Source of the DNA: Rhodococcus triatomae BKS 15-14
Lineage (GTDB): Bacteria; Actinomycetota; Actinomycetes; Mycobacteriales; Mycobacteriaceae
Reading direction: 5' to 3'
Length of the DNA stretch: 64,000 bases
Assembly (NCBI GenBank): GCA_000341795.1
Contig: AODO01000014.1
Span: 1 to 64,000, forward strand
The notes below the pieces were generated by a model. It worked only from the letters and a program-made list of their open reading frames with translations. It had not been told where the DNA came from and made no database searches. Shown here piece by piece: positions 49,293 through 62,263 of this stretch. The first letter of the stretch is position 1, and each line of letters starts with the position of its first letter. The translations under genes were made by a program, and so were the position numbers.

Positions 49293-50267
49293 TCAGTCGA
49301 TCAGACCCTCGGTCCGGAGCCAGTCGTAGGCGACGTCCGCCGGATCCTCCCCGTCGATGTCGACGCGGCCGTTCAGTTCCTGCATCACCTCGTCGGTGAG
49401 GCGTTCGGAGATCACCGCCATCAGGTCGGCGATCGGCGGGTACCGCTCGAGGATCTCGCGTCGCACGACGGCGGTGCCGCTGTAGGGCAGGAAGAAGTCC
49501 CGATCGTCCTCGAGGACGGTGAGGTTCAGGTTCTTCACCCGGCCGTCCGTGGTGTACACCATGCCGAAGTTGCACGGGTCGCTGCGCGCCGTCGAGGTGT
49601 AGACGACGCCGGCGTCCATCCTCGTCACGTTCTGCGGTGGAACTCCGCCCGGGGCTCCGAGGGGTATGTCGTAGGCCTCGAGCATCGGCACGAATCCGTC
49701 CGCGCGGCTGTAGAACTCGTCGTCGACACAGAAGGTGCGTTCGGTCTCCGGGAGCTGCGCGACATCGGACAGCGTGGTGACGCCGAGTCGCTGCGCCGTG
49801 TCGGCAGAGGCCGCGAAGGCGTACGTGTCGTTGAAGTTCGCAGGCGGCAACCACACGAGGTCGTTCTCCTGCAACTCGATGTCGTGCACCCGCTGCCACA
49901 GCTCCGTGGGGTCGGACACGGTTTCCGTCTGGCCGTGATAGTTCACCCAGCCGGTACCCGTGTACTCCCAGAGGATGTCGGCATCGCCGTTCAGTTGCGC
50001 CTGGCGCGAGGAGGCGGACCCGGGCGCCCCGGTGAGATCGGTGACCTCCGCTCCCGCGGCGGCCAGATAGGTGGCGGTGATCTTCCCGAGCAGGACACCC
50101 TCGGTGAAACTCTTCGAGGTCACGACGAGACCTGCTCCGTCGAGAGGCCGCTCGCCTCCGGGCAGCGACGCGTCGTGGAACGTGCCCGACGAGCTGACCA
50201 GCCCGCAGCCGGACAGTGTGACGAGTGCGAGAACGGCGACGGCCGCCGAGCCGAGGCGGCGGATCAT
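49293..50267 (-). CDS. Osmoprotectant ABC transporter substrate-binding lipoprotein
   Basis: A 324-aa lipoprotein, the ligand-binding part of a glycine betaine/choline/carnitine-type importer (OpuC/ProX family). Lipobox LSGC lies at about residues 18-21. The binding domain has VVTSKSFTEGVLLGKITATY, GDADILWEYTGTGWVNYHG and FVDDEFYSRADGF-like sequence, ending VAYDWLRTEGLID. The ATG overlaps the permease stop by 4 nt. It is the last of four coupled genes (permease, ATPase, permease, binding protein), the order of mycobacterial proXVWZ-like systems. The exact solute is not known. Confidence 0.88.
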   Translation of the reverse strand: MIRRLGSAAVAVLALVTLSGCGLVSSSGTFHDASLPGGERPLDGAGLVVTSKSFTEGVLLGKITATYLAAAGAEVTDLTGAPGSASSRQAQLNGDADILWEYTGTGWVNYHGQTETVSDPTELWQRVHDIELQENDLVWLPPANFNDTYAFAASADTAQRLGVTTLSDVAQLPETERTFCVDDEFYSRADGFVPMLEAYDIPLGAPGGVPPQNVTRMDAGVVYTSTARSDPCNFGMVYTTDGRVKNLNLTVLEDDRDFFLPYSGTAVVRREILERYPPIADLMAVISERLTDEVMQELNGRVDIDGEDPADVAYDWLRTEGLID

Positions 50268-51001
50268 GCCAGTCCCCGCGGAGTCACGGCCAGCTCGACC
50301 AGCCGGCCGAGCCAGTCGATCGTCAGTGCCAGCAGGCCCACCAGCACGGCCCCGGACACGAGCAGTTTCGGCAGGAACAGCGTCACCCCGGTGGTGATGA
50401 GGGTGCCGAGACTGGTGGCGCCGATGAACGTGCTCAAGGTCGCGGTTCCGACGAGGATCACCAGCGCGGTCCGGACACCGTTGAGGATGACGGGAACGGC
50501 GAGCGGCAACTCCACCTGAACGAGGGTGCGTGGCGCGGAGTAGCCGATTCCCCGCGCGGCCTCGACGGTGCGCTTGTCGACCTGGTCGAGGCCGACGATC
50601 GTGTTCTGCAGGATCGGGAGGACGGCGTACGCGACGAGGCCGATCACCGCGGTGCGGAACCCGGTCCCCAACCACATGGTGAGCAGCACGATCAGGCCGA
50701 TGGCCGGAGCCGCCTGGCCGATGTTCGCGATGTTGACGGCGATCGGTTTGAGGCGTTTCGCCGAGCCGCGGGTGAGCAGGATGCCCAGGGGGATCGCGAT
50801 CACCACCACGATCACGGTGGCCGTCACGGTGAGGCGGATGTGGTCGACGATCGTCAGACGCAGCGCATCCCAACCCAGAGACGCCTCCTCCGTCGCCGTC
50901 AGCGTCGTCGACCGATACCACAGGAAGTAGCCGGTGCCGAGCACGATGATGATCAACGGCTCGAACCACACGTCGATCGGGGCACGGCGGAGGCGGGTCA
51001 C
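50264..51001 (-). CDS. Osmoprotectant ABC transporter permease
   Basis: A 245-aa membrane permease with about six helices. The EAA-type loop is near VEAARGIGYSAPRTLVQVEL, and PIAVNIANIGQAAPAIGLIV is typical of the OpuCB/ProW family. The GTG start overlaps the ATPase stop by 4 nt, and its stop overlaps the binding-protein start. The first about 25 residues are cytoplasmic and basic. It pairs with the second permease at 52227-52871. Confidence 0.88.
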   Translation of the reverse strand: MTRLRRAPIDVWFEPLIIIVLGTGYFLWYRSTTLTATEEASLGWDALRLTIVDHIRLTVTATVIVVVIAIPLGILLTRGSAKRLKPIAVNIANIGQAAPAIGLIVLLTMWLGTGFRTAVIGLVAYAVLPILQNTIVGLDQVDKRTVEAARGIGYSAPRTLVQVELPLAVPVILNGVRTALVILVGTATLSTFIGATSLGTLITTGVTLFLPKLLVSGAVLVGLLALTIDWLGRLVELAVTPRGLA

Positions 51002-52230
51002 GGTGCACGCACCTCGCCCTCGCCCGGCCCGTCGTCGCCCCGCCCGTGTTCGTCGTATCCGGTGTAGGTGACGTGTCCGTCGTCCGCGCGGGCGTCGGAC
51101 AGCTGACCGCGGATGACGGACATGATCGTGGCGATGGTGAGCGAGCCGGTCACCGCGCCGCGTCCGTCGGTGACGAGCACACCGCCCTGGCTCGCCGCGA
51201 GCATCGTGTCGAGCGCATCGTTGAGTGTCGACGACGGCGCGACCACCGGAAGCCTCGGATCGAGATAGTCGGAGATCCGTTCCTTGGTCGCCACTTCGTC
51301 GAGCGACGGCCACGCGCGAGGGCGGCCGTGTGCGTCGACGACCACGATCCAGGTGGCTCCACGCGCCCTCGCCCGGCCGATCACCTCGTGCGACGACTCG
51401 CCGACGCGCGCGGTCACCACAGCGTCGTGGTCGACGTCCTTGACCCTCGACAGCGTCAGGTGGGCCAGGGTGGCGCCGGATCCGACGAACTCCTCGACGA
51501 ACGGCGTCGCCGGTGTCGCGAGGATCTCCTCCGGCGTCGCGTACTGCTCGATGTGCCCGCCCTCGGACAGGATCAGAACCTTGTCGCCGAGCTTCGTCGC
51601 CTCCTCGAAGTCGTGGGTGACGATCACGACCGTCTTCGCCAGCTCGTGCTGGATGGCGATCAGGCTGTCCTGCAGGCGGACCCGGGTGATGGGGTCGACT
51701 GCGCCGAACGGCTCGTCCATCAGGAGGACGGGTGGGTCCGCGGCCAGGGCCCGCGCGACGCCGACCCGCTGCTGCTGCCCACCCGACATGTCCTTCGGGA
51801 GCCGGTCACGGAAGGTGTCGGCATCGAGTCCGACCAGGTCGAGGAGGTACTCGGTGCGCTCCTCGATGCGCCTGCCGTCCCATCCGAGCACGCGGGGGAC
51901 GGCGCCGATGTTCTTCGCCACCGACCAGTGCGGGAACAGTCCGCCCGACTGGATGACGTAGCCGATCGACTGGCGCAGCTTGTCGGGATTCTCGTGGGTG
52001 ACGTCGCGGTCGCCGATGAAGATGCGGCCCGCGGTCGGCTCGATCAGGCGGTTGATCATCTTGAGTGTCGTCGTCTTGCCGCAACCGGAGGGGCCGACGA
52101 AGGCCACGACCTGACCGGCTTCGATGTCGAGGTCGATCGATTCGACCGCCGGCCTCGACTGACCGCGGTACCGCTTGACGACGCCGTCGAGGCGGATGGA
52201 GGCGCCGGTGACGGCACGGTTCTCGGTCAC
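50998..52230 (-). CDS. Osmoprotectant ABC transporter ATPase with CBS domains
   Basis: A 410-aa ATP-binding subunit. Walker A is FVGPSGCGKTTTLKMINRLI (about residues 38-57), the signature LPKDMSGGQQQRVGVARALA, and Walker B VLLMDEPFGAVDP. Residues about 270-390 contain paired CBS-like segments (YLDPRLPVVAPSSTLNDALD), which in OpuA-type transporters sense ionic strength. GAAGGGA supports the GTG; it overlaps the upstream permease stop by 4 nt. The CBS tail fits an osmotically controlled importer. Confidence 0.9.
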   Translation of the reverse strand: MTENRAVTGASIRLDGVVKRYRGQSRPAVESIDLDIEAGQVVAFVGPSGCGKTTTLKMINRLIEPTAGRIFIGDRDVTHENPDKLRQSIGYVIQSGGLFPHWSVAKNIGAVPRVLGWDGRRIEERTEYLLDLVGLDADTFRDRLPKDMSGGQQQRVGVARALAADPPVLLMDEPFGAVDPITRVRLQDSLIAIQHELAKTVVIVTHDFEEATKLGDKVLILSEGGHIEQYATPEEILATPATPFVEEFVGSGATLAHLTLSRVKDVDHDAVVTARVGESSHEVIGRARARGATWIVVVDAHGRPRAWPSLDEVATKERISDYLDPRLPVVAPSSTLNDALDTMLAASQGGVLVTDGRGAVTGSLTIATIMSVIRGQLSDARADDGHVTYTGYDEHGRGDDGPGEGEVRAP

Positions 52231-52871
52231 TGCAGTCCCTTCGAGATGGTCAGGCGCCCCAGGAGGACGAGGAGGGCGTCGAAGACCAGTGCGACGATCA
52301 CGATGAGAACGGTTCCGGTGAAGGCCATCTCGACCGAGTTGGTACCGCCGAGTCGTGAGAGTCCGTTGAAGATGAGCGACCCGAGTCCAGGTCCGAGAAC
52401 GTAGGCGACGATGGCGGCGACGCCGACGATCATCTGGGTGGACACGCGGATCCCGGTGAGAATGACCGGCCACGCGATCGGCAACGACACCGTGACGAGG
52501 ATGCGGCTGCGGGACAGCCCGATTCCACGTGCGGACTCGATGAGCGAGTCGGGCACCGATCTCAGGCCGACGATCGCGTTGCCGATCACCGGCATCGCCG
52601 CGAAGAACGCGAGCATGATGAACGACGGTACGACACCGAGACCGAACGGGATGATCAGCAGGGCGAGCAGGGCCAGGGACGGGATGGTCAGTGCGACGCG
52701 GCTGCTGGTGAGGGTCAGTGCGGAGGCCAGTGGAAGGCGGTGCACCGCAACGGCGATCACGATCGCGACGACGGTTCCCACCAGGACGGTCTGGAAGGCC
52801 AGCGACGCGTGCTGATAGGTGAGGAACGCGAGAAACTCACCCCGACCCTGCAGGTAGTCCCAGAGGTTCAC
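52227..52871 (-). CDS. Osmoprotectant ABC transporter permease
   Basis: A 214-aa membrane permease and first gene of the four-gene transporter operon. It has about five to six helices; MPVIGNAIVGLRSVPDSLIE and ESARGIGLSRSRILVTVSLP form the family loop that contacts the ATPase. GTG 52871 has AGGAG upstream. It begins 115 nt from the MFS gene stop. No operator was recognised in that gap. It resembles OpuCD/ProW; solute specificity depends on the binding lipoprotein. Confidence 0.88.
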   Translation of the reverse strand: MNLWDYLQGRGEFLAFLTYQHASLAFQTVLVGTVVAIVIAVAVHRLPLASALTLTSSRVALTIPSLALLALLIIPFGLGVVPSFIMLAFFAAMPVIGNAIVGLRSVPDSLIESARGIGLSRSRILVTVSLPIAWPVILTGIRVSTQMIVGVAAIVAYVLGPGLGSLIFNGLSRLGGTNSVEMAFTGTVLIVIVALVFDALLVLLGRLTISKGLQ

Positions 52872-52985: not shown

Positions 52986-54347
52986 CTACGCTCGCGCCGC
53001 CGCGGCCGCGCTCTGCTCGGCGAGGGTGCGCAGCCCGGCCGGATACACCCGCCTGCCGATCATCAGGGCCACGATCGCCGCGAGGTACACCAGTGGGGTG
53101 AGCTGCAGTGCGCCGAGAAGCCCGATTCGGTCGGCCAGAACACCCACGACGAACGGACCGGTCGCGAGTCCGAGGATGTTGTTGGAGACCGTGAGGGTCC
53201 CCAGCGCGGATGCGCGCACCGACGGATGGGTCAGGCCCGCCACCATCGCCGCCGTCGGGCCCGACGACCCGGCGGAGAAGAAGGCGCCGATGCCGAGCAG
53301 GACGAGCTGGGGTGCCCCGGTCTCCAGGGTGAAGGCGCAGCCGAGGGCAATCAGCGAGACGATGCAGTACGCGACGGCGCTGGCCCACTTCCGGCTCGGG
53401 TCGTTTCGGCTGACGCGGTCCGTGATCATGCCGCACACGACCATGCCGGATCCGATGAGCAGCACGAACACGGAGGCGATGACGCCTGCCTTGTCGGGGG
53501 CGAGGCCGTAGTACCGGTTGAAGAAGCTGGGTGTCCAGGCGAGGAGCACGGCCGCGGTGAACATCTGGAGTCCGCCGCCGACGTACGCGCACCAGATTGC
53601 GGGATTGGTGAACAGGGTGGACACCGGAACCCGGATCCGGCCGGAGACGGGCAGGTCCGTGTGCGGGTCGGCCTCGGCGTTGTGTTCCGCCAGGCGACGT
53701 TCGGTCACGACGGCCCGGAACACCGCGACGAGGAGCAGGCCGAGGACGGCCATCGCAGCGAACGACCACCGCCAGCTCAGGTGCACGGCGATCACGCCAC
53801 CGAGCGAGACGCCGACGACCGAGCCGAACGATCCGCCCGCCATGAAGGCGCCACTGAGCGTCGAGTGCACGCGGGGCGCGAAGACACTGAGCACCAGGGC
53901 GATTCCGACGCTGCCGTACGCCGCCTCACCGACGCCGACCAGGAACCGCGCGGCCAGCATCTGTTCGTAGTTCGCCGCCAACGCGCAGCACAGCGTCGCG
54001 AGGCTCCAGATCACCGCCATCAGGACGAGGCTGCGGACCCGGCCCCAGCGGTCGGCGAGCAGGGAGAGCGGGAAGGTCAGCAGTCCGACCATCAGCGCGA
54101 CGATGCTGGTGAGTGATGCCAGCTGCGAATCCGTCAGTGCCCAATCGGCTTTCAGGAAGGGGAACACCGCACTGAGTACCTGCCGGGACATGTAGTCCGA
54201 GAGGAGCAGTGCGAAGGTGAGCGCGAACACGAGCCAGGGGTAGAGCGATCGGCTGCGGCCGGTCGACGCGACGTCCGGCGCGGTGACGGCGCTCGCCGGC
54301 TCGGGGCCGTCGGTCGGCTCCGCGGTCGTGGTGGTGGGCAGTCCCAT
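52986..54347 (-). CDS. MFS transporter (anion:cation symporter/spinster-like)
   Basis: A 453-aa major facilitator with twelve predicted helices. Family marks are LLLSDYMSRQVLSAVFPFLK after the first helix and SLLADRWGRVRSL, the conserved loop 2-3 motif. RFLVGVGEAAYGSVGIALVL and a Gly-rich GGSFGSVVGVSLGGV follow. This subgroup imports organic acids. AAGGAGC precedes the ATG. It lies 48 nt after the carboxymuconolactone-decarboxylase-like gene and is probably co-transcribed with it. That promoter shares elements with the BKACE operon. Likely carries the pathway's acid substrate. Confidence 0.87.
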   Translation of the reverse strand: MGLPTTTTAEPTDGPEPASAVTAPDVASTGRSRSLYPWLVFALTFALLLSDYMSRQVLSAVFPFLKADWALTDSQLASLTSIVALMVGLLTFPLSLLADRWGRVRSLVLMAVIWSLATLCCALAANYEQMLAARFLVGVGEAAYGSVGIALVLSVFAPRVHSTLSGAFMAGGSFGSVVGVSLGGVIAVHLSWRWSFAAMAVLGLLLVAVFRAVVTERRLAEHNAEADPHTDLPVSGRIRVPVSTLFTNPAIWCAYVGGGLQMFTAAVLLAWTPSFFNRYYGLAPDKAGVIASVFVLLIGSGMVVCGMITDRVSRNDPSRKWASAVAYCIVSLIALGCAFTLETGAPQLVLLGIGAFFSAGSSGPTAAMVAGLTHPSVRASALGTLTVSNNILGLATGPFVVGVLADRIGLLGALQLTPLVYLAAIVALMIGRRVYPAGLRTLAEQSAAAAARA

Positions 54348-54395: not shown

Positions 54396-54788
54396 TCAGG
54401 ACGCGGCGCGGCGTGCCTCGAACGCGTCGAGTTCGTCCTCGAGGATGGGGACGCCGAGATTGCAGGCGTGGATGCCGAGAACGCTCACCATCTGCAGGAC
54501 CGTGAGGATCTGCTCACGGGAGACTCCCAGTTCCAGTGCGGCCCGGATGTGCCGCCGCACGCCCGGTGCGTACAGGTGGGTGGCCGCGGCGTCGATGGCG
54601 ATGCTGAGGAGTTCGACGAACTCGGGAGTGAACACACCGCGTCGCACCGGGGTCGCATTCATCGCCATGAACTGCTCGGTCCATTCGGGGTCCCAGTCGG
54701 ACAGTGTGTCCCAGAGGGGATTCCAGTTGCCGGTGCGGCGCATCAGGTCGATGGTCGGCGTCCGGATCGGCTCGGGATTCGTGGTCAT
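54396..54788 (-). CDS. Carboxymuconolactone decarboxylase-like protein
   Basis: A 130-aa all-helical protein of the CMD/AhpD superfamily (FTPEFVELLSIAIDAAATHL, VRRHIRAALELGVSREQILT and VLQMVSVLGIHACNLGVPIL). The AhpD-type CxxC catalytic pair is absent; ATHLYAPGVRRHI stands where it would be, leaving a single His. It is therefore closer to decarboxylase or lactonase members than to peroxidases. It is first in a unit with the MFS gene. The upstream region contains the motif shared with the BKACE operon promoter. Confidence 0.82.
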   Translation of the reverse strand: MTTNPEPIRTPTIDLMRRTGNWNPLWDTLSDWDPEWTEQFMAMNATPVRRGVFTPEFVELLSIAIDAAATHLYAPGVRRHIRAALELGVSREQILTVLQMVSVLGIHACNLGVPILEDELDAFEARRAAS

Positions 54789-54856
54789 GCGGCACTCGTT
54801 TCACGCGTGGGGTGAACGGGGGTGACGCGGACGGCGACCCCCGCCGAAAGTGGCGT

Positions 54857-54903
54857 GGATCACGTTATCCGGATCGGTGAGGGGGTAGTTACCCTCAGGG
54901 GAC
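54857..54903 (-). promoter_or_regulatory. Promoter elements of the CMD-MFS unit, shared with the BKACE operon
   Basis: Read on the minus strand: GTCCCCTGAGGGTAA (54903-54889), then GGATAACGTGATCC (54870-54857), 68 nt before the CMD-like start. Both elements recur upstream of the quinone oxidoreductase gene at 56018-56041. The first contains the palindrome CCCTGAGGG. They are candidate binding sites for the AraC regulator encoded between them. A separate CTGTCC/GGACAG hairpin (54910-54927) lies beyond the AraC stop. Confidence 0.6.
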
Positions 54904-54955
54904 GCTGTTCTGTCCTTTTCGGGACAGGGTGCGTCCCGGGATCGTGTGGCGGGTG

Positions 54956-55960
54956 CTACCGGGTGGCCTGCTTGCGCCACTCTCGGGGGCTCATGCCGAA
55001 CTGCTGGTGGAACCACCGCGAGAAGCTGCTGGGGGTGGAGAACGCCAACATCTCGGAGATCTCGGTGAACGAATAGCGCCGGCCGGTCACCATCCGGTTC
55101 GCCAGTTCGGCCCGCGTCTCGTCGAGGACGGCGGTGAAGGTGAGGCCGGACTTGGCCAGATGGCGGTGCACGGTGCGGCGGTCCACGCCGATGCTGCGCG
55201 CGACCTGGTCGATCGTGCAGCGGCCGGTCGGCAGCAGCAGTTCGACGAGCTCGCGGACGCGGGTGGTCGTCGTGGGCTCCTCGGGTGTGGCGACGGTGTC
55301 GAGGAACTGGCGGGCGTAGGACCGCAGCACCGGGTCGGAGAGTCGGTTGGGCTCGTCGAGGTCACTCGTGTACGTGACGATTCCCGAGTACTCGGCGTCG
55401 AAACTCAGCGGCACGCCGAAGGTGCGCCGGTGTGTGCTGTCGTCTGCGGGCCTGGGGTGCTCGAAGCACACCGACGCCGGGTGCCAGCGGTCGCCGAGGA
55501 CGTGGCCGAGCAGCTGGTACGTGGCGGTGACGGCAAGTTCCACGGACTGGCGTACCGGCATCGGTTCACCGGTGTCGACGTGGATGCGAATCGTGGACAG
55601 TCCGTCGCGCTCCGCGAGGCGGATGTGCAGGGACTCGTTGAACATGTGCTGGAACCTGATCAGCAGGCGGACGGCGCTGCGGGCGTCGGGTTCCTCGCGG
55701 AGGCTGATGCTCAGCGGGCCCAGGGTCGAGAGACGGCGGCGGTCCGCGAGCTTGAGTGCGAAGTCCGGCCGTCCCGATGCCGCCGCCGACAGCTCGAGCA
55801 GGCGTGCAACCGACGCCGCGGGAACCCACCGGTCCTGCAGTTCCAGGCCGGCGGGGTCGAGGTTGACGCTCCGCATCAGCTGGATCGGATCGAGTGCCAG
55901 CGAGCGGCTCAGCTCGATGTACCCGGTCAGCGCGGCGTAGCGCGCGAGTGGCTTGGCCAC
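54956..55960 (-). CDS. AraC family regulator of the BKACE/TauD regulon
   Basis: A 334-aa regulator with an N-terminal arabinose-binding-type domain (GYIELSRSLALDPIQLMRSV onward) and a C-terminal double HTH (STIDQVARSIGV-like segment, RTVHRHLAKSGLTFTAVLDE, MLAFSTPSSFSRWFHQQFGM). This is the OruR/VirS-like subgroup, which usually activates divergent catabolic genes. The GTG start has GGGGGAACC upstream. It is divergent from the quinone oxidoreductase operon and co-oriented with the CMD-MFS unit. Both of those promoters carry a shared motif. Confidence 0.87.
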   Translation of the reverse strand: MAKPLARYAALTGYIELSRSLALDPIQLMRSVNLDPAGLELQDRWVPAASVARLLELSAAASGRPDFALKLADRRRLSTLGPLSISLREEPDARSAVRLLIRFQHMFNESLHIRLAERDGLSTIRIHVDTGEPMPVRQSVELAVTATYQLLGHVLGDRWHPASVCFEHPRPADDSTHRRTFGVPLSFDAEYSGIVTYTSDLDEPNRLSDPVLRSYARQFLDTVATPEEPTTTTRVRELVELLLPTGRCTIDQVARSIGVDRRTVHRHLAKSGLTFTAVLDETRAELANRMVTGRRYSFTEISEMLAFSTPSSFSRWFHQQFGMSPREWRKQATR

Positions 55961-56017
55961 GCGGTTCCCCCGCTCGGTCTCGACTGCGCCCGGGTGTCCC
56001 GAGACGGCAACAAATAT

Positions 56018-56041
56018 GTCCCCTCAGGATAAGTGTGATCC
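56018..56041 (+). promoter_or_regulatory. Promoter elements of the BKACE operon, shared with the CMD-MFS unit
   Basis: GTCCCCTCAGGATAA (56018-56032) overlaps GGATAAGTGTGATCC (56027-56041). The first matches GTCCCCTGAGGGTAA ahead of the CMD-like gene at 13 of 15 bases. The second matches GGATAACGTGATCC there with a one-base length difference. In this promoter the two elements overlap, in the other they are separated. They lie 139 nt before the quinone oxidoreductase start. Confidence 0.6.
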
Positions 56042-56179
56042 CTGACTCCTGGCTAGTGTGGTGTCAGCGAAGTCACAGCCGGGTGGTTCGAGTACGAAAC
56101 CCGTTGTGGTGCAGCGGGAAACCGCACTCGCCGCGCGTGGAACCGCCACCGGCGAGCACGAGAACCGAGGAGAACTCAC

Positions 56180-57154
56180 ATGGCGAATGCGATCCGATTC
56201 CACGAAACGGGCGGCCCCGAGGTCTTGAAGTGGGAGTCCGTCGACGTGGGCGACCCGGGGGCCGGTGAGGTGCGCGTCCGGCACGAGGCCGTCGGTCTGA
56301 ACTTCGCCGACACCTACTTCCGGACCGGCCTGTACCCCGCCCCGCTGCCTGCCGGCATGGGGGTCGAGGCCGCCGGCGTGGTCGAGGCGGTCGGTACGGG
56401 CGTCACCGGCTTCCGCGAGGGTGATCGCGTCACCTACACCGGGAGCCCGCTCGGCGCCTACAGCACCGAGCGCGTGATGCCCGCCGATCACCTGATCGCA
56501 CTGCCGGACCGGATCACCTTCGGCACCGCGGCCGCGATGACCATGCGCGGGCTGACCACGGCGTACCTCCTGCGTCGGATCCATCCCCTGGCGCCCGGCG
56601 ACACGGTCCTGCTGCACGCCGCAGCCGGCGGCGTGGGACTGATCTTCACGCAGTGGGCGAAGCTCTTGGGCGTCAACGTCATCGGTACCGTCTCCACCGA
56701 CGGGAAGGCCGCAGTGGCACGGGCGCACGGATGCAGCGAGGTCATCGTGTACACCCGGGAGAACGTCGCCGACCGCGTTCGTGAGCTCACCGGCGGCAAG
56801 GGCGTCCCCGTCGTCTACGACAGCATCGGCGCCACCACCTTCCAGACCTCGATCGACTCGCTCGCCCGCCGCGGGCTTCTCGTCGCCTTCGGCACCGCAT
56901 CCGGACCGATCCCGCCGATCGACGCCATGCAGCTCGCGGTCAAGGGATCGCTGTTCGTGACCCGTCCCGCCCTCGCCGACTACATCGCCGACCCCACCGA
57001 GCGGGCCGAGCTCGCCGGCGAACTGTTCGACCACGTCGCTTCCGGCCGGATCGCCATCGAGATCAACCAGCAGTACGCGCTCGACGACGCCGTCCGCGCC
57101 CACCGTGACCTGGAATCCGGCCGCAGCGTCGGGTCCTCGGTCTTCACCTGCTGA
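56180..57154 (+). CDS. Quinone oxidoreductase (zeta-crystallin type)
   Basis: A 324-aa zinc-free medium-chain reductase that uses NADPH to reduce quinones or enones. Marks are GLNFADTYFRTGLYPAPLPA, the nucleotide site LLHAAAGGVGLIFTQWAKLL (about residues 148-167) and the C-terminal YALDDAVRAHRDLESGRSVG. No zinc-binding Cys cluster, unlike AdhP. GAGGAG precedes the ATG. It heads an operon with dioxygenase, BKACE, hydrolase and CoA-transferase genes. In that pathway it may oxidise a hydroxyl or reduce an enone; which one is unclear. Confidence 0.87.
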   Translation: MANAIRFHETGGPEVLKWESVDVGDPGAGEVRVRHEAVGLNFADTYFRTGLYPAPLPAGMGVEAAGVVEAVGTGVTGFREGDRVTYTGSPLGAYSTERVMPADHLIALPDRITFGTAAAMTMRGLTTAYLLRRIHPLAPGDTVLLHAAAGGVGLIFTQWAKLLGVNVIGTVSTDGKAAVARAHGCSEVIVYTRENVADRVRELTGGKGVPVVYDSIGATTFQTSIDSLARRGLLVAFGTASGPIPPIDAMQLAVKGSLFVTRPALADYIADPTERAELAGELFDHVASGRIAIEINQQYALDDAVRAHRDLESGRSVGSSVFTC

Positions 57155-57166
57155 GAGGAGACACCA

Positions 57167-58060
57167 ATGACCGCAACCGTCGACAGCCGATCGGTCCACT
57201 CCCGGACCGCCATGGACGCTCGTCCCCTCACCTGCAGCATCGGTGCCGAGGTGCTCGACGTCGCGCTCGCCGAGGTCGCCCACGACGAGATCCGTTTCGC
57301 GGAGCTGCGCGCTCTGCTGCTCGAGCACAAGGTGCTGTTCTTCCGCGACCAGGACATCACCCGCGGTGACCACGTCGCGCTCGCCGAGCGCTTCGGCTCC
57401 CTGGAAGACCATCCCGTCGTCGGCAGCGACCCGGACCATCCCGGGCTCGTCCGCATCTACAAGGACGTCGACAGTCCGCCGGAGCGGTTCGAGAACGCGT
57501 ACCACTGCGATGCGACATGGCGCGAGAACCCGCCGATGGGTGCCGTGCTCCGCTGTGTCGAGGGACCGGCCGTCGGCGGTGACACCATGTGGGTGAACAT
57601 GGCGCTCGCGTACGAGCGGCTGCCCGAACACGTGAAGGAGCGGATCGCCGGCCTGCGCGCCCGGCACAGCATCGAGTCGACGTTCGGTGCCCGCATGCCG
57701 ATCGGAGAACGGCTCGCGCTCAGGGAACGCTTCCCGGACGCCGAGCATCCGGTCGTGCGCACCCACCCGGAGACGGGCGAGAAGATCCTCTTCGTCAACT
57801 CCTTCACCACCCACATCACCAATTTCCACACCGCCGAGAACGTCCGGTGTGGCATCGACTACGCGCCCGGCGCCGGTGAGCTGCTGCGCTACCTGCAGAG
57901 CCAGGCCACCATCCCCGAGTACCAGGTCCGCTGGCGCTGGACCCCGAACAGCATCGCGATCTGGGACAACCGCTCCACCCAGCACTACGCCGTCCAGGAC
58001 TACCGGCACGCCGTCCGAAAGATGGAGCGCGCCGGGATCGTCGGCGACCGTCCCTTCTGA
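57167..58060 (+). CDS. TauD/TfdA family Fe(II)/2-oxoglutarate dioxygenase
   Basis: A 297-aa non-haem iron dioxygenase. The first two iron ligands are in YHCDATWRENPP (His 113, Asp 115), the distal His in IWDNRSTQHYAVQDY (about 273), and a nearby Arg binds 2-oxoglutarate. LLLEHKVLFFRDQDITRGDH is typical of TauD/TfdA. It hydroxylates an unactivated carbon of a small acid with release of succinate and CO2. Known substrates of relatives include taurine, 2,4-D and alkyl sulfates. The sulfur or phenoxy specificity cannot be read here. GAGAGGAGACACCA precedes the ATG; 12 nt after the preceding gene. Confidence 0.88.
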   Translation: MTATVDSRSVHSRTAMDARPLTCSIGAEVLDVALAEVAHDEIRFAELRALLLEHKVLFFRDQDITRGDHVALAERFGSLEDHPVVGSDPDHPGLVRIYKDVDSPPERFENAYHCDATWRENPPMGAVLRCVEGPAVGGDTMWVNMALAYERLPEHVKERIAGLRARHSIESTFGARMPIGERLALRERFPDAEHPVVRTHPETGEKILFVNSFTTHITNFHTAENVRCGIDYAPGAGELLRYLQSQATIPEYQVRWRWTPNSIAIWDNRSTQHYAVQDYRHAVRKMERAGIVGDRPF

Positions 58061-58109: not shown

Positions 58110-59165
58110 ATGCATTTCCACGACGATGCGTTCTTCCCCGGGAACCAGGAGAAGCTGGTCATCACCGTCGCGCCGTACGGCCCGGAGTGGGCGGTGGAGG
58201 ACTTCCCCGAAGACCTGCCCCTGACGATGGACGAGCACGTCCAGAAGGCCGTCGACTGCTACGAGGCCGGCGCGACGGTGCTGCACATCCACGTCCGCGA
58301 GGAGGACGGCAAGGGCTCCAAGCGGCTGTCGAAGTTCAACGAGCTCCTCGGCCGCCTCCGGGAAGCCGTGCCGGACATGATCCTGCAGGTCGGCGGCTCG
58401 ATCTCGTTCGCGCCGGAAGGTGACGGTGCCGACGCGAAGTGGCTTCCGGACAACGTCCGCCACATGCTCGCCGAACTGGATCCGAAGCCCGACCAGGTCA
58501 CGATCGCGATCAACACCAGCCAGATGAACATCATGGAGCTGATGACGCCGGGCGACATCAGGGGCACTTCGCTGGAGAACGCCGAGCTCGCCGCGACGTA
58601 CCGCGAGATGACCGTCCCCGCCGGCCCCGAGTGGGTCGAGGAGCACCTGCGCCGCCTGCAGGCCGCAGGCATCCAGCCGCACTTCCAGTTGTCCTCCGTG
58701 CCGCAACTCGAAACCGTGGAGCGGCTGATCCGCCGCGGCGTCTACACCGGCCCGCTGAACCTCACCTGGGTCGGGATCGGCGGCGGCTTCGACGGACCGA
58801 ACCCGTACAACATCATGAACTTCGTCCAGCGCGTCCCGGACGGCGCCTGCCTGACCCTCGAAACCCTGATGCGCAGTGTGCTTCCCGTCAACACCATGGC
58901 CATCGCGATGGGCCTGCACACACGGTGCGGCAACGAGGACAACCTGTGGGCGCCCAGCGGAGAGGAGAAGATCACCTCCGCGGAGCAGGTCCGTCAGCTG
59001 GTGCGGGTGGCGAAGGAGTTGGGCCGCGAGGTGGCCACCGGCAAGGAGGCCCGCGACATCTACAAGATCGGCACCACCTACGCCGACGCGGACGAGACCC
59101 TCGCCGAGCTCGGCTACGCCCCGAACCGCCTTCCCGGACAGGTCGGCTTCACCCAGCACGCCTGA
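58110..59165 (+). CDS. BKACE family beta-keto acid cleavage enzyme
   Basis: A 351-aa protein of the BKACE/DUF849 family, zinc-dependent. It condenses a beta-keto acid with acetyl-CoA and splits the adduct to acetoacetate and a new acyl-CoA. Zinc histidines are in VLHIHVREEDG (His 59 and 61). The TIM-barrel motifs include ISFAPEGDGADAKWLPDN, NTSQMNIMEL and WVGIGGGFDGPNPYNIMNFV. The first 40 residues carry an acidic extension compared with Kce. ACGGAGCCACACA precedes the ATG. The acetoacetate product would be taken up by the CoA-transferase 650 nt downstream. Its keto-acid substrate is unknown. Confidence 0.88.
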   Translation: MHFHDDAFFPGNQEKLVITVAPYGPEWAVEDFPEDLPLTMDEHVQKAVDCYEAGATVLHIHVREEDGKGSKRLSKFNELLGRLREAVPDMILQVGGSISFAPEGDGADAKWLPDNVRHMLAELDPKPDQVTIAINTSQMNIMELMTPGDIRGTSLENAELAATYREMTVPAGPEWVEEHLRRLQAAGIQPHFQLSSVPQLETVERLIRRGVYTGPLNLTWVGIGGGFDGPNPYNIMNFVQRVPDGACLTLETLMRSVLPVNTMAIAMGLHTRCGNEDNLWAPSGEEKITSAEQVRQLVRVAKELGREVATGKEARDIYKIGTTYADADETLAELGYAPNRLPGQVGFTQHA

Positions 59166-59237: not shown

Positions 59238-59822
59238 ATGACCAGCACCACCGACCCGACCGTGGTGATCGTGCCCGGACTGCGGGACCACGTCGCCGAT
59301 CACTGGCAGACCCTGCTCGCCGAGAAGCTCGATCGCGTGGTCACCGTACCGCCGCTCGAGCGTGACGGATTGAGCCTGAAGGCTCGGGTGGCGGCACTCG
59401 ACTCGGTGCTCGCGGGCGTCGACGGTCCCGTCGTCCTGGTCGCCCATAGCGCAGGCGTACTCATCACCGTGCACTGGGCCCGGCAGGCGACCCGCTCGGT
59501 GCAGGGAGCGTTGCTGGCCACGCCGGCGGATCTGGAACTGCCTCTGCCGCAGGGCTATCCCACGACGGGGGAGCTCGACGAGGGCGGCTGGCTGCCGATC
59601 CCGCGGCGGCGGCTGCCGTTTCCGAGCATCGTCGCGGCCAGCGACGACGACCCGCTCGCGACGCACCGCCGTGTCGCAGGCCTCGCCGAGGTGTGGGGCA
59701 GCCGGCTCGTCGATCTCGGTCCCGTGGGGCATCTGAATCCCGCCTCCGGGTACGGGTACTGGTCGCGGGCCGAGGAGTTCGTGCGCGAACTGTCCGGTGC
59801 TCCCACACAGGTGTCGTCGTGA
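59238..59822 (+). CDS. RBBP9/YdeN family serine hydrolase
   Basis: A 194-aa alpha/beta hydrolase of the RBBP9/YdeN type. The nucleophile is Ser 71 in VVLVAHSAGVLITVHWAR; the His is in GPVGHLNPASGYG near residue 172, and an Asp in ASDDDPLA. These small esterases act on short esters, lactones or thioesters. The ATG follows TTTGGAGAACCG. The stop overlaps the CoA-transferase A start by 4 nt, so it belongs to the pathway, perhaps hydrolysing a lactone or ester intermediate. Confidence 0.85.
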   Translation: MTSTTDPTVVIVPGLRDHVADHWQTLLAEKLDRVVTVPPLERDGLSLKARVAALDSVLAGVDGPVVLVAHSAGVLITVHWARQATRSVQGALLATPADLELPLPQGYPTTGELDEGGWLPIPRRRLPFPSIVAASDDDPLATHRRVAGLAEVWGSRLVDLGPVGHLNPASGYGYWSRAEEFVRELSGAPTQVSS

Positions 59823-60610
59823 CGCGCGTGTACGTGTCGGCGGCCGACGCCGTGGCCGACATCCGCGACGGCGCGTCGCTGGCGGTCGGCGGATTCGGGT
59901 TGTGCGGTGTTCCCGATGCGCTCATCGCGGCGCTGGCGGCAGGCGATGCCACCGACCTCGACGTCGTGTCCAACAACTGCGGAACCGACGGACACGGACT
60001 CGGACTCCTGCTGGAGAAGCACCGGATCCGGCGGGTGACCGCGTCGTACGTCGGTGAGAACCGCGAGTTCGCGCGCCAGTACCTGGACGGTGAGCTCGAG
60101 GTGGAACTGTCACCGCAGGGCACACTCGCCGAGCGGCTGCGTGCGGGCGGAGCGGGCATCCCGGCGTTCTTCACCCCTGCGGGGGTCGGAACTCCGGTCT
60201 CCGAGGGCGGGCTGCCGTGGCGGTACGGACCCGACGGCTCGGTCGCGGTGGCGTCGCCGCCGAAGGAGACCCGCGACTACGCGGGCCGGCGCCACCTGCT
60301 GGAGGAGTCGATCACCACCGACTACGCCCTGGTGCACGCCGCCATCGGGGACACCGCCGGGAACCTGGTCTTCAACCTCGCGGCACGCAATTTCAATCCG
60401 CTCGCCGCCATGGCGGGACGGGTGTGCATCGCCCAGGTCGAGACGCTCGTCGAACCCGGGGTTCTCGATCCCGCGATGGTCCACCTTCCGGGCATCTTCG
60501 TCGATCGCGTGGTGTGTACGGGACGGCAGGACAAGAAGATCGAGAAGCGGACGGTGGCCCCGCGGAACGAGCGCAGTGGCCACCGGGCGACGAACGGGGC
60601 ACACACATGA
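59819..60610 (+). CDS. 3-oxoacid CoA-transferase subunit A
   Basis: A 263-aa subunit A of a SCOT-type CoA-transferase. Marks are [20 protein letters not shown] (CoA-binding glycine turn), [38 protein letters not shown], and [20 protein letters not shown]. With subunit B it moves CoA from succinyl-CoA to acetoacetate. The C-terminal about 25 residues are a basic extension. The GTG overlaps the hydrolase stop, and the stop overlaps subunit B, so three genes are coupled. Confidence 0.92.
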
Positions 60611-61257
60611 CCAGCACATCGACCGCCGTCGCGGGCTGGACCCGGGACCGGATGGCGGCGCGCGTCGCAGCCGAACTCGCGGACGGCGACTACGTCAACC
60701 TCGGCATCGGTCTCCCGACACTGATCCCCGACCACGTGCCGCCCGGACTCGGCGTGACCCTGCACAGCGAGAACGGGATCCTCGGCACCGGTCGCTACCC
60801 CGACGAGAGCTCGGTGGACGCGGACCTGATCAACGCGGGCAAGGAAACCGTCACGGTGAACGCCGGAGCCGCCTTCTTCGACTCCGCACTGTCGTTCGGG
60901 ATGATCCGGGGCGGACACATCGACGTCGCGGTGCTCGGCGGCATGCAGGTGTCCGAGTCGGGCGACCTCGCCAACTGGATGGTCCCCGGCAAGATGGTCA
61001 AGGGCATGGGCGGCGCGATGGACCTGGTGCACGGCGCGGGGAAGGTCATCGTGCTGATGGACCACACGGACAAGGCGGGGGAGCCGAAGATCGTGCGCGC
61101 CTGCACCCTTCCCCTGACCGGGCAGGCCGTGGTGCACCGGATCGTCACCAACCTCGCGGTCATCGACGTCACGGAGTCGGGACTGGTGTTGCGTGAATGT
61201 GCACCGGGAGTATCCGCGGACGACGTGCGCGCCGCGACGGGCGCGCCCCTGCGCTGA
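60607..61257 (+). CDS. 3-oxoacid CoA-transferase subunit B
   Basis: A 216-aa subunit B with the catalytic Glu 55 in [12 protein letters not shown]. Other marks are [39 protein letters not shown] and [20 protein letters not shown]. It forms a covalent glutamyl-CoA intermediate during transfer from succinyl-CoA to acetoacetate. The ATG overlaps subunit A by 4 nt. The gene ends the operon; only 13 nt separate it from the convergent LysR gene. Confidence 0.93.
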
Positions 61258-61270
61258 AACCGGTGATGTG

Positions 61271-62170
61271 TCAGGTGCGGCTGCGACGCACGATCCTGAC
61301 CAGGTCGCCGCCGGGACCTTCGAGCTGCCGGGGCGGGCGCCACACTGCGCGCAGGGTGCGGTCCAGATGCAGTCCGTCCACCTCGACGACCCGCAGGGCG
61401 CCGGAGTCCACCTGCGACGACACCGCAAGCGTGCTCAGCACGGCCGGGCCCACTCCGCTCAGCACGCTCGTCCGCACCGCGGCACCGCTTCCGAGTTCGA
61501 GAAGCGGTGCCGCCCTGTCGTATTCGTGGAGGGCGACGTCGAGCGTCGTTCGGGTTCCGGAACCCGGTTCGCGGACGACGAGGGGGGTCGCTGCCAGTTC
61601 GGCGACGGACAACGGGCGCCGCCGCCGGGCCCACGGGTGGCCGGGGTCGACAACCACGACCAGACGGTCGTGGGCGACGGCCACGCTGTGCAGCCCGCGG
61701 GGCACCGTGGGCGATTCGACGAACCCGACGTCGCAGGCGCCCGCCGTGACGTCCTCGCACACCTGCATGGAATTGCGTACCTGCAGGTGGATCGTGACAT
61801 CGGGAGCCGTTCGGCGGAACCGGCCCAACCAGGCGGGCATCAGGTGTTCGGCGACGGTCATGCTGGCGCCGACGGTCAGTTCGGCGGCCCGTTTCTCGCG
61901 CATGCCCGCCGCCACGTCGAGCAGTTGTCCGGCCTCGGCGAGCACCCGCCGTGACCAGTGTGCGAGCACCGTCCCCTCGGGCGTCAACGTCGAACCCGTC
62001 GGCTTCCGCTGGAGCAGCGGAGTACCGACCTGCGCCTCCAGGCGCTTGATCGCCCGGCTCGCATTGGGCTGTGCCATGCCTGCGATCCGGGCTGCCGCAC
62101 TGAGACTTCCGTGATCGTCCACGCCGACGACGAGTTCCAGGACGTCGAGGTCGGGCCACTCACGATGCAT
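61271..62170 (-). CDS. LysR family regulator (YeiE-like)
   Basis: A 299-aa LysR-type regulator. The winged HTH is in residues about 8-60 (VVGVDDHGSLSAAARIAGMA, QPNASRAIKRLEAQVGTPLL). The effector domain (about 92-290) has AELTVGASMTVAEHLMPAWL and VVREPGSGTRTTLDVALHEY, typical of the CysB/YeiE-like group. The ATG at 62170 gives the family start; an in-frame TTG 6 nt upstream is possible. It is divergent from the YeiH-family gene, the arrangement of yeiE-yeiH in enterobacteria, and presumably controls it. A T-N11-A box lies between them. Confidence 0.88.
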   Translation of the reverse strand: MHREWPDLDVLELVVGVDDHGSLSAAARIAGMAQPNASRAIKRLEAQVGTPLLQRKPTGSTLTPEGTVLAHWSRRVLAEAGQLLDVAAGMREKRAAELTVGASMTVAEHLMPAWLGRFRRTAPDVTIHLQVRNSMQVCEDVTAGACDVGFVESPTVPRGLHSVAVAHDRLVVVVDPGHPWARRRRPLSVAELAATPLVVREPGSGTRTTLDVALHEYDRAAPLLELGSGAAVRTSVLSGVGPAVLSTLAVSSQVDSGALRVVEVDGLHLDRTLRAVWRPPRQLEGPGGDLVRIVRRSRT

Positions 62171-62199
62171 TCCCAAATCATATGCCAACTCTGTAGGAC

Positions 62200-62214
62200 A
62201 TATCGTTTCGATAT
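62200..62214. promoter_or_regulatory. LysR-type T-N11-A box
   Basis: ATATCG-TTT-CGATAT (62200-62214) is a perfect 6-bp inverted repeat fitting the T-N11-A LysR motif. A CATATG palindrome lies 16 nt away at 62179-62184. They sit between the divergent LysR and YeiH-family genes. Confidence 0.6.
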
Positions 62215-62263
62215 GAGGCAATGGTGAGATGACGACTACCGCGCCGCCACCGGGTGGACCAGT

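Follow-up and report, generated by a model that had tools for sequence, protein, structure and literature searches.

Operators of XylS and BenR, two regulators of the AraC/XylS family, are direct repeats of TGCA-N6-GGNTA, in the case of XylS with a period of 21 bp (PMC4514859; PMC6449761). The MtlR operator of Pseudomonas fluorescens, AGTGC-N5-AGTAT-N7-AGTGC-N5-AGGAT, has a 22-bp period and occupies positions -72/-58 and -50/-36 (PMC4514859). Two further classes of sites are relevant for comparison: those of the LysR family, which are inverted repeats of the type T-N11-A (PMC6449761), and those of GlxR/CRP, with consensus TGTGA-N6-TCACA (PMC7999487).

The locus described here comes from Rhodococcus triatomae BKS 15-14. 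The analysed stretch of 64 kb (the window) is part of its 5.82-Mb genome and contains an AraC/XylS-family gene, araC, located between a QOR-TauD-BKACE operon and a CMD-MFS unit (Table 1). Residues 23-205 of the encoded regulator constitute an Arabinose_bd domain (PF12625, E 1.7e-41), the separate N-terminal effector/dimerisation domain of the AraC/XylS family. The C-terminal part contains a double helix-turn-helix DNA-binding domain (PF12833, E 1.2e-16; PF00165, E 2.3e-09).

Table 1. Genes and predicted promoter elements of the araC locus in the window
Feature	Position	Strand	Support
MFS transporter	52986..54347	-	PF07690 E 7.4e-48; kept with module in relatives
CMD / AhpD-like protein, first gene of unit downstream of araC	54396..54788	-	PF02627 E 2.9e-07
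Dyad GTGATCCACGCCAC (GTGA-N6-CCAC) over inferred start site	54850..54863	-	GTGATgtgcgCCAC kept in CMD-side alignment
-10 box TAACGT, CMD-MFS promoter (inferred)	54862..54867	-	21 nt past proximal half-site; TAaCGTGAT kept in 21 orthologues
Proximal AraC half-site CGTCCCCTGAGGGTAA, CMD-MFS operator (predicted)	54889..54904	-	Contains the 15-mer 54889-54903
Distal AraC half-site TGTCCCGAAAAGGACA, CMD-MFS operator (predicted)	54911..54926	-	Orthologue alignment
AraC/XylS-family regulator, 334 aa, GTG start	54956..55960	-	Arabinose_bd N-terminal domain and C-terminal HTH_18
Distal AraC half-site TGTCCCGAGACGGCAA, QOR operator (predicted)	55995..56010	+	22 bp upstream of proximal half; kept in orthologues
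Proximal AraC half-site TGTCCCCTCAGGATAA, QOR operator (predicted)	56017..56032	+	Contains the 15-mer 56018-56032
-10 box TAGTGT, QOR operon promoter (inferred)	56054..56059	+	21 nt past proximal half-site; TAnnnT equally spaced in aligned orthologues
CRP-like dyad TGTCAGCGAAGTCACA over inferred start site	56062..56077	+	TCAC at fixed offset past -10 in 70/75 homologous promoters
NADPH:quinone reductase-like oxidoreductase (QOR)	56180..57154	+	NF008024 372.7 bits, cut-off 348
TauD/TfdA-family 2-oxoglutarate dioxygenase	57167..58060	+	PF02668 E 1.5e-65; 5vn6 E 1.2e-139
Beta-keto acid cleavage enzyme (BKACE)	58110..59165	+	PF05853 E 2.6e-65; Kce 2y7d E 9e-36
Serine hydrolase, alpha/beta fold	59238..59822	+	PF06821 E 8.6e-37
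3-oxoacid CoA-transferase subunit A	59693..60610	+	TIGR02429 217.9 bits, cut-off 128.5
3-oxoacid CoA-transferase subunit B	60613..61257	+	TIGR02428 326.1 bits, cut-off 243.55
LysR-type regulator	61271-62221		Far end of QOR operon

Tandem operators at both ends of araC

An earlier note had reported a 15-mer shared by the regions upstream of both units, and the pair is present exactly as described: GTCCCCTGAGGGTAA at 54889-54903 (-) and GTCCCCTCAGGATAA at 56018-56032 (+), identical in 13 of 15 positions. The 15-mer is real, but the full operator had been missed. Comparison of orthologues revealed a tandem operator of which each 15-mer forms the promoter-proximal half, with a second copy exactly 22 bp further upstream. 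The operator consists of two TGTCCC-N4-GGnnA half-sites with a 22-bp period, followed after 21 bp by a TAnnnT -10 box; its aligned consensus is TGTCCCgAAatGnAcAGAAnnnnGTCCCnnnGGGTAA-21-TAnnGT. Operator and -10 box together span 55995-56059 (+) before QOR-TauD-BKACE and 54862-54926 (-) before CMD-MFS. Identity between the two amounts to 36 of 64 positions and clusters in the half-sites and the -10 box. Both window sites, like those of aligned relatives, have half-sites that are direct repeats with a period of 22 bp, within the 21-22 bp of tandem operators of the XylS/MtlR type.

If the -10 box is set as -12 to -7, the 15-bp half-sites (GTCCC...) are located at about -70 to -56 and -48 to -34. 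The proximal half-site would thus adjoin or overlap the -35 position, a placement that depends on the -10 assignment (the half-site ends 21 nt before the conserved TAnnnT).

Taken alone, the 13/15 match is thin evidence, since at least 13 identities were reached in 109 of 1000 dinucleotide shuffles of the two intergenic regions (11%). The short match is secure only by virtue of the second half-site, the spacing to the -10 box and conservation in relatives.

Genome-wide searches were carried out at several levels of stringency. Within the 5.82-Mb genome, only the two 15-mers of the window match GTCCCCTNAGGNTAA exactly. With up to two mismatches, 15 matches were found versus 45 for a reversed control pattern, so that the motif is not commoner than its control. 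Near-matches elsewhere (C7:73221, C21:68769) were rejected, as they are devoid of a second half-site at 22 bp and represent chance level. The complete pattern of tandem operator and -10 box (18 fixed bases) has two exact matches, both at araC; the next ones carry 3 mismatches, on par with the reversed-pattern control. A 67-position sequence profile built from 35 sites retrieved these two sites only, up to E=10 (2.4e-13 and 7.8e-12). A PWM built without the window and without its closest relative, Rhodococcus sp. RD6.2, scored them at 67.9 and 56.6 bits, the next best score in the 64 kb being -11.4. The earlier note had held that frequent occurrence of the motif at unrelated genes would speak against its proposal; the genome contains two sites only, both at araC, an outcome that favours the proposal.

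Conservation and rearrangement in relatives

The comparison covered about 25 regulator orthologues with 66-88% identity, the named ones coming from Rhodococcus and one Nocardia. The search of orthologous loci, suggested in the earlier note, detected both operators in 21 close orthologues, with at most one mismatch on the CMD side. On the divergent (QOR) side, the operator is present in 75 of 89 AraC homologues with at most two mismatches, down to about 45% protein identity.

The module consisting of araC, QOR-TauD-BKACE-hydrolase and CMD-MFS recurs in the 22 loci examined, where CoA-transferase genes are attached to it at varying places. Beyond CMD-MFS, the window contains genes for a glycine betaine/choline-type (osmoprotectant-type) ABC transporter (49293-52871, -), which are not conserved with the module in relatives.

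Operators move with their target genes through rearrangements. A second operator is found where the CMD-MFS or MFS unit stands apart, in whatever place. In RD6.2, some 2.3 kb separate CMD-MFS from araC, and the unit has its own operator in front; in two loci (L078/L079) the reversed MFS gene is likewise preceded by its own operator. In five others (L080-L084), MFS is situated inside the QOR operon, one operator is left and the second is gone. Where araC is co-directional with QOR (G030), the operator is located between the two, and in three relatives without QOR and TauD (L068, L071, L073) it directly precedes BKACE. This behaviour, together with conservation, makes a coincidental 13/15 match, or an inert leftover of duplication, exceedingly improbable. 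Such an origin agrees with the 11% of shuffled regions that reach this score, yet both sites are kept at fixed spacing in the 21 diverged orthologues and follow rearranged genes. RD6.2 also possesses a third operator (L065:2261-2325, -). It precedes a second MFS gene, which shares 61% identity with the MFS of the window, and the regulon has apparently been expanded there.

Distribution of operator and regulator was determined across 121 genomes. Both were present in 22, the regulator only in 4, the operator only in 2 and neither in 93 (Fisher p 4.9e-18). The two operator-only genomes contain a more diverged araC beside the site, and 4 of the 26 regulator-bearing genomes lack an operator match at strict filters. 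All 31 match loci read in this survey adjoin such an araC. This bears on the idea that the repeats are merely a class of promoters common to both units and read by an alternative sigma factor, with no regulator site involved. The fixed distance of the sequence from the -10 box in both promoters would suit such a class; a sigma regulon, however, would be scattered, whereas the element is a tandem direct repeat with two occurrences in the genome, and the loci read elsewhere adjoin this araC. We therefore consider a sigma factor very unlikely.

Similar considerations apply to binding of the repeats by another protein, for example the LysR-type regulator, with AraC as a bystander. A LysR gene is indeed found at the far end of the QOR operon, and RD6.2 has kept it. 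Most relatives, however, have no close LysR beside the module, while araC is always there, and tandem direct repeats suit AraC/XylS dimers rather than the inverted repeats of the LysR family (PMC6449761). We give this possibility very little credence. The claim of the earlier note that one AraC regulator serves both units is, by contrast, strongly supported by indirect, comparative evidence: operators unique in the genome occur at both ends of araC, are kept in orthologues, move with the target units and co-occur with the regulator across genomes.

Weaker versions of the operator were detected in Streptomyces and Cupriavidus; one Streptomyces plasmid carries a version on each side of araC, with 3 and 4 mismatches. 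In one lineage (L029-L033, L035, L037), an extra single half-site GTCCCGCAAGGGTAAGTGTG is located about 30 bp upstream of araC, some 80-100 bp from the tandem operator, and might possibly be a site of araC autoregulation.

Paralogous modules of a variant clade (L020, L046, L085, L087) carry TGCC-type half-sites upstream of QOR, with the 22-bp period retained. Residue 262, located in the first recognition helix, is arginine in 75 of 75 regulators with GTCCC-type sites and lysine in 4 of 4 from the TGCC-type clade. The R262K change would fit direct readout of the operator by the regulator; being confined to one clade, it could also be hitch-hiking.

Dyads over the inferred start sites

GGATAA followed by GTGATCC had been put forward as a second element common to both promoters. 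Both copies are literally present, GGATAACGTGATCC at 54857-54870 (-) and GGATAAGTGTGATCC at 56027-56041 (+), but the element was mis-assigned. On the CMD side, the -10 box TAACGT falls within GGATAACGT, and GTGATCC belongs to the left part of the dyad GTGATCCACGCCAC. On the QOR side, the operator ends with GGATAA, and GTGATCC falls into a poorly conserved spacer. Since the register of the two copies with respect to operator and -10 box differs, they are not a shared element.

The true QOR counterpart of the CMD dyad is the candidate CRP-like dyad TGTCAGCGAAGTCACA. In 70 of 75 homologous promoters, TCAC occurs at offset 9, 14 or 19 after the start of the -10 box, that is in 5-bp steps. The QOR dyad reads TGTCA-N6-TCACA, against TGTGA-N6-TCACA for CRP/GlxR, and Crp-type HTH proteins are encoded in the genome. 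This pattern of conservation marks the predicted dyad over the inferred start site as an additional conserved element. Seven homologous loci (L106, L107, L111, L114, L118, L125, L126) have GTCTCG in the proximal half-site and a shifted TCACATCAG or TCATCAG past the -10 box.

We tentatively propose, as a possibility somewhat short of an even chance, that a composite promoter is characteristic of the whole AraC subfamily: tandem operator, -10 box and CRP-like dyad over the start, with the three offsets 5 bp apart. If so, a pathway-specific activator would share control of every promoter of this BKACE module with a global regulator of the cAMP type, and the operator code would be recognisable even in Streptomyces and Cupriavidus.

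Regulatory model and comparison with known systems

The enzyme set suggests an oxidation step, after which a beta-keto acid would be cleaved with acetyl-CoA, yielding acetoacetate for activation by the CoA-transferase. Assignment of the pathway substrate from protein families alone was not possible. The listed reading frame of CoA-transferase subunit A overlaps the hydrolase gene, while residues matched by TIGR02429 begin at 44; its true start is probably near 59830.

We hold it very probable that the regulator is an AraC/XylS-type inducer-responsive activator that co-induces both units, acting locally on these two targets. A regulator dimer, presumably with a bound pathway metabolite, would occupy the two direct-repeat half-sites before each unit. 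The proximal half-site would reach the -35 position and stand in for a -35 box, and the bound regulator would recruit RNA polymerase to the TAnnnT -10 box at both promoters. QOR-TauD-BKACE-hydrolase-CoA transferase would thereby be induced together with CMD-MFS. Since about 35 bp separate the araC start codon from the QOR operator upstream of it, the regulator bound there may also limit its own expression. We infer all these properties: binding by this very protein, activation, an inducer and autoregulation.

Operator geometry and regulator family both suggest a dimeric activator, with XylS and MtlR as models. Activation is preferred over repression by analogy, from geometry and family habit. 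A regulator that acts mainly as repressor at both sites and is released by inducer seems unlikely, if less so than the other alternatives. Protein bound at the proximal half-site, which touches the -35 region, could also block polymerase; on the other side, no conserved -35 box is recognisable in the place of the half-site, and XylS and MtlR, dimeric AraC/XylS regulators of carbon metabolism that share this geometry, are activators (PMC4514859).

What began as a guess from one sequence is now a defined operator, and for this catabolic module a regulon of two units can be put to the test. Conservation of the operator code throughout the subfamily makes it usable for predicting which genes many uncharacterised regulators of this type control. 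AraC and its promoter could become an inducible system in Rhodococcus once an inducer is known.

Searches of open-licence literature on the motif, on BKACE in Rhodococcus and on QhpR turned up no account of this system. While its design is already known, this operator with its target genes appears undescribed there. The best NCBIfam model for the regulator is QhpR (NF049968, residues 48-329), yet the score of 189.4 bits is below the 250-bit cut-off, so that by this measure it is no QhpR orthologue. The nearest solved structure by sequence is VirS of Mycobacterium tuberculosis (8rcx), similar over the whole length (E 1.1e-34); the relationship is distant, and the comparison covered the protein sequences. 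The QOR dyad resembles CRP/GlxR sites, but differs from them by its imperfect left half and its position over the inferred start site.

The closest parallels are among AraC/XylS operators. MtlR shares the 22-bp period, and the placement of its half-sites (-72/-58 and -50/-36; PMC4514859) nearly coincides with the one inferred here (-70/-56 and -48/-34), but its half-sites differ in sequence and it controls a sugar-alcohol regulon, with its gene apart from its target. Our sites do not belong to the XylS/BenR operator class TGCA-N6-GGNTA: the GTCCC-type sites contain TGTC for TGCA and share the GGnTA part. The period is 22 instead of 21 bp, the targets are others, and two operators are present, one at each end of the regulator gene. 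With XylS/Pm and BenR the system has in common a regulator of the same family, catabolic target genes and tandem direct repeats in the half-site register TGnn-N6-GGnTA (PMC4514859; PMC6449761).
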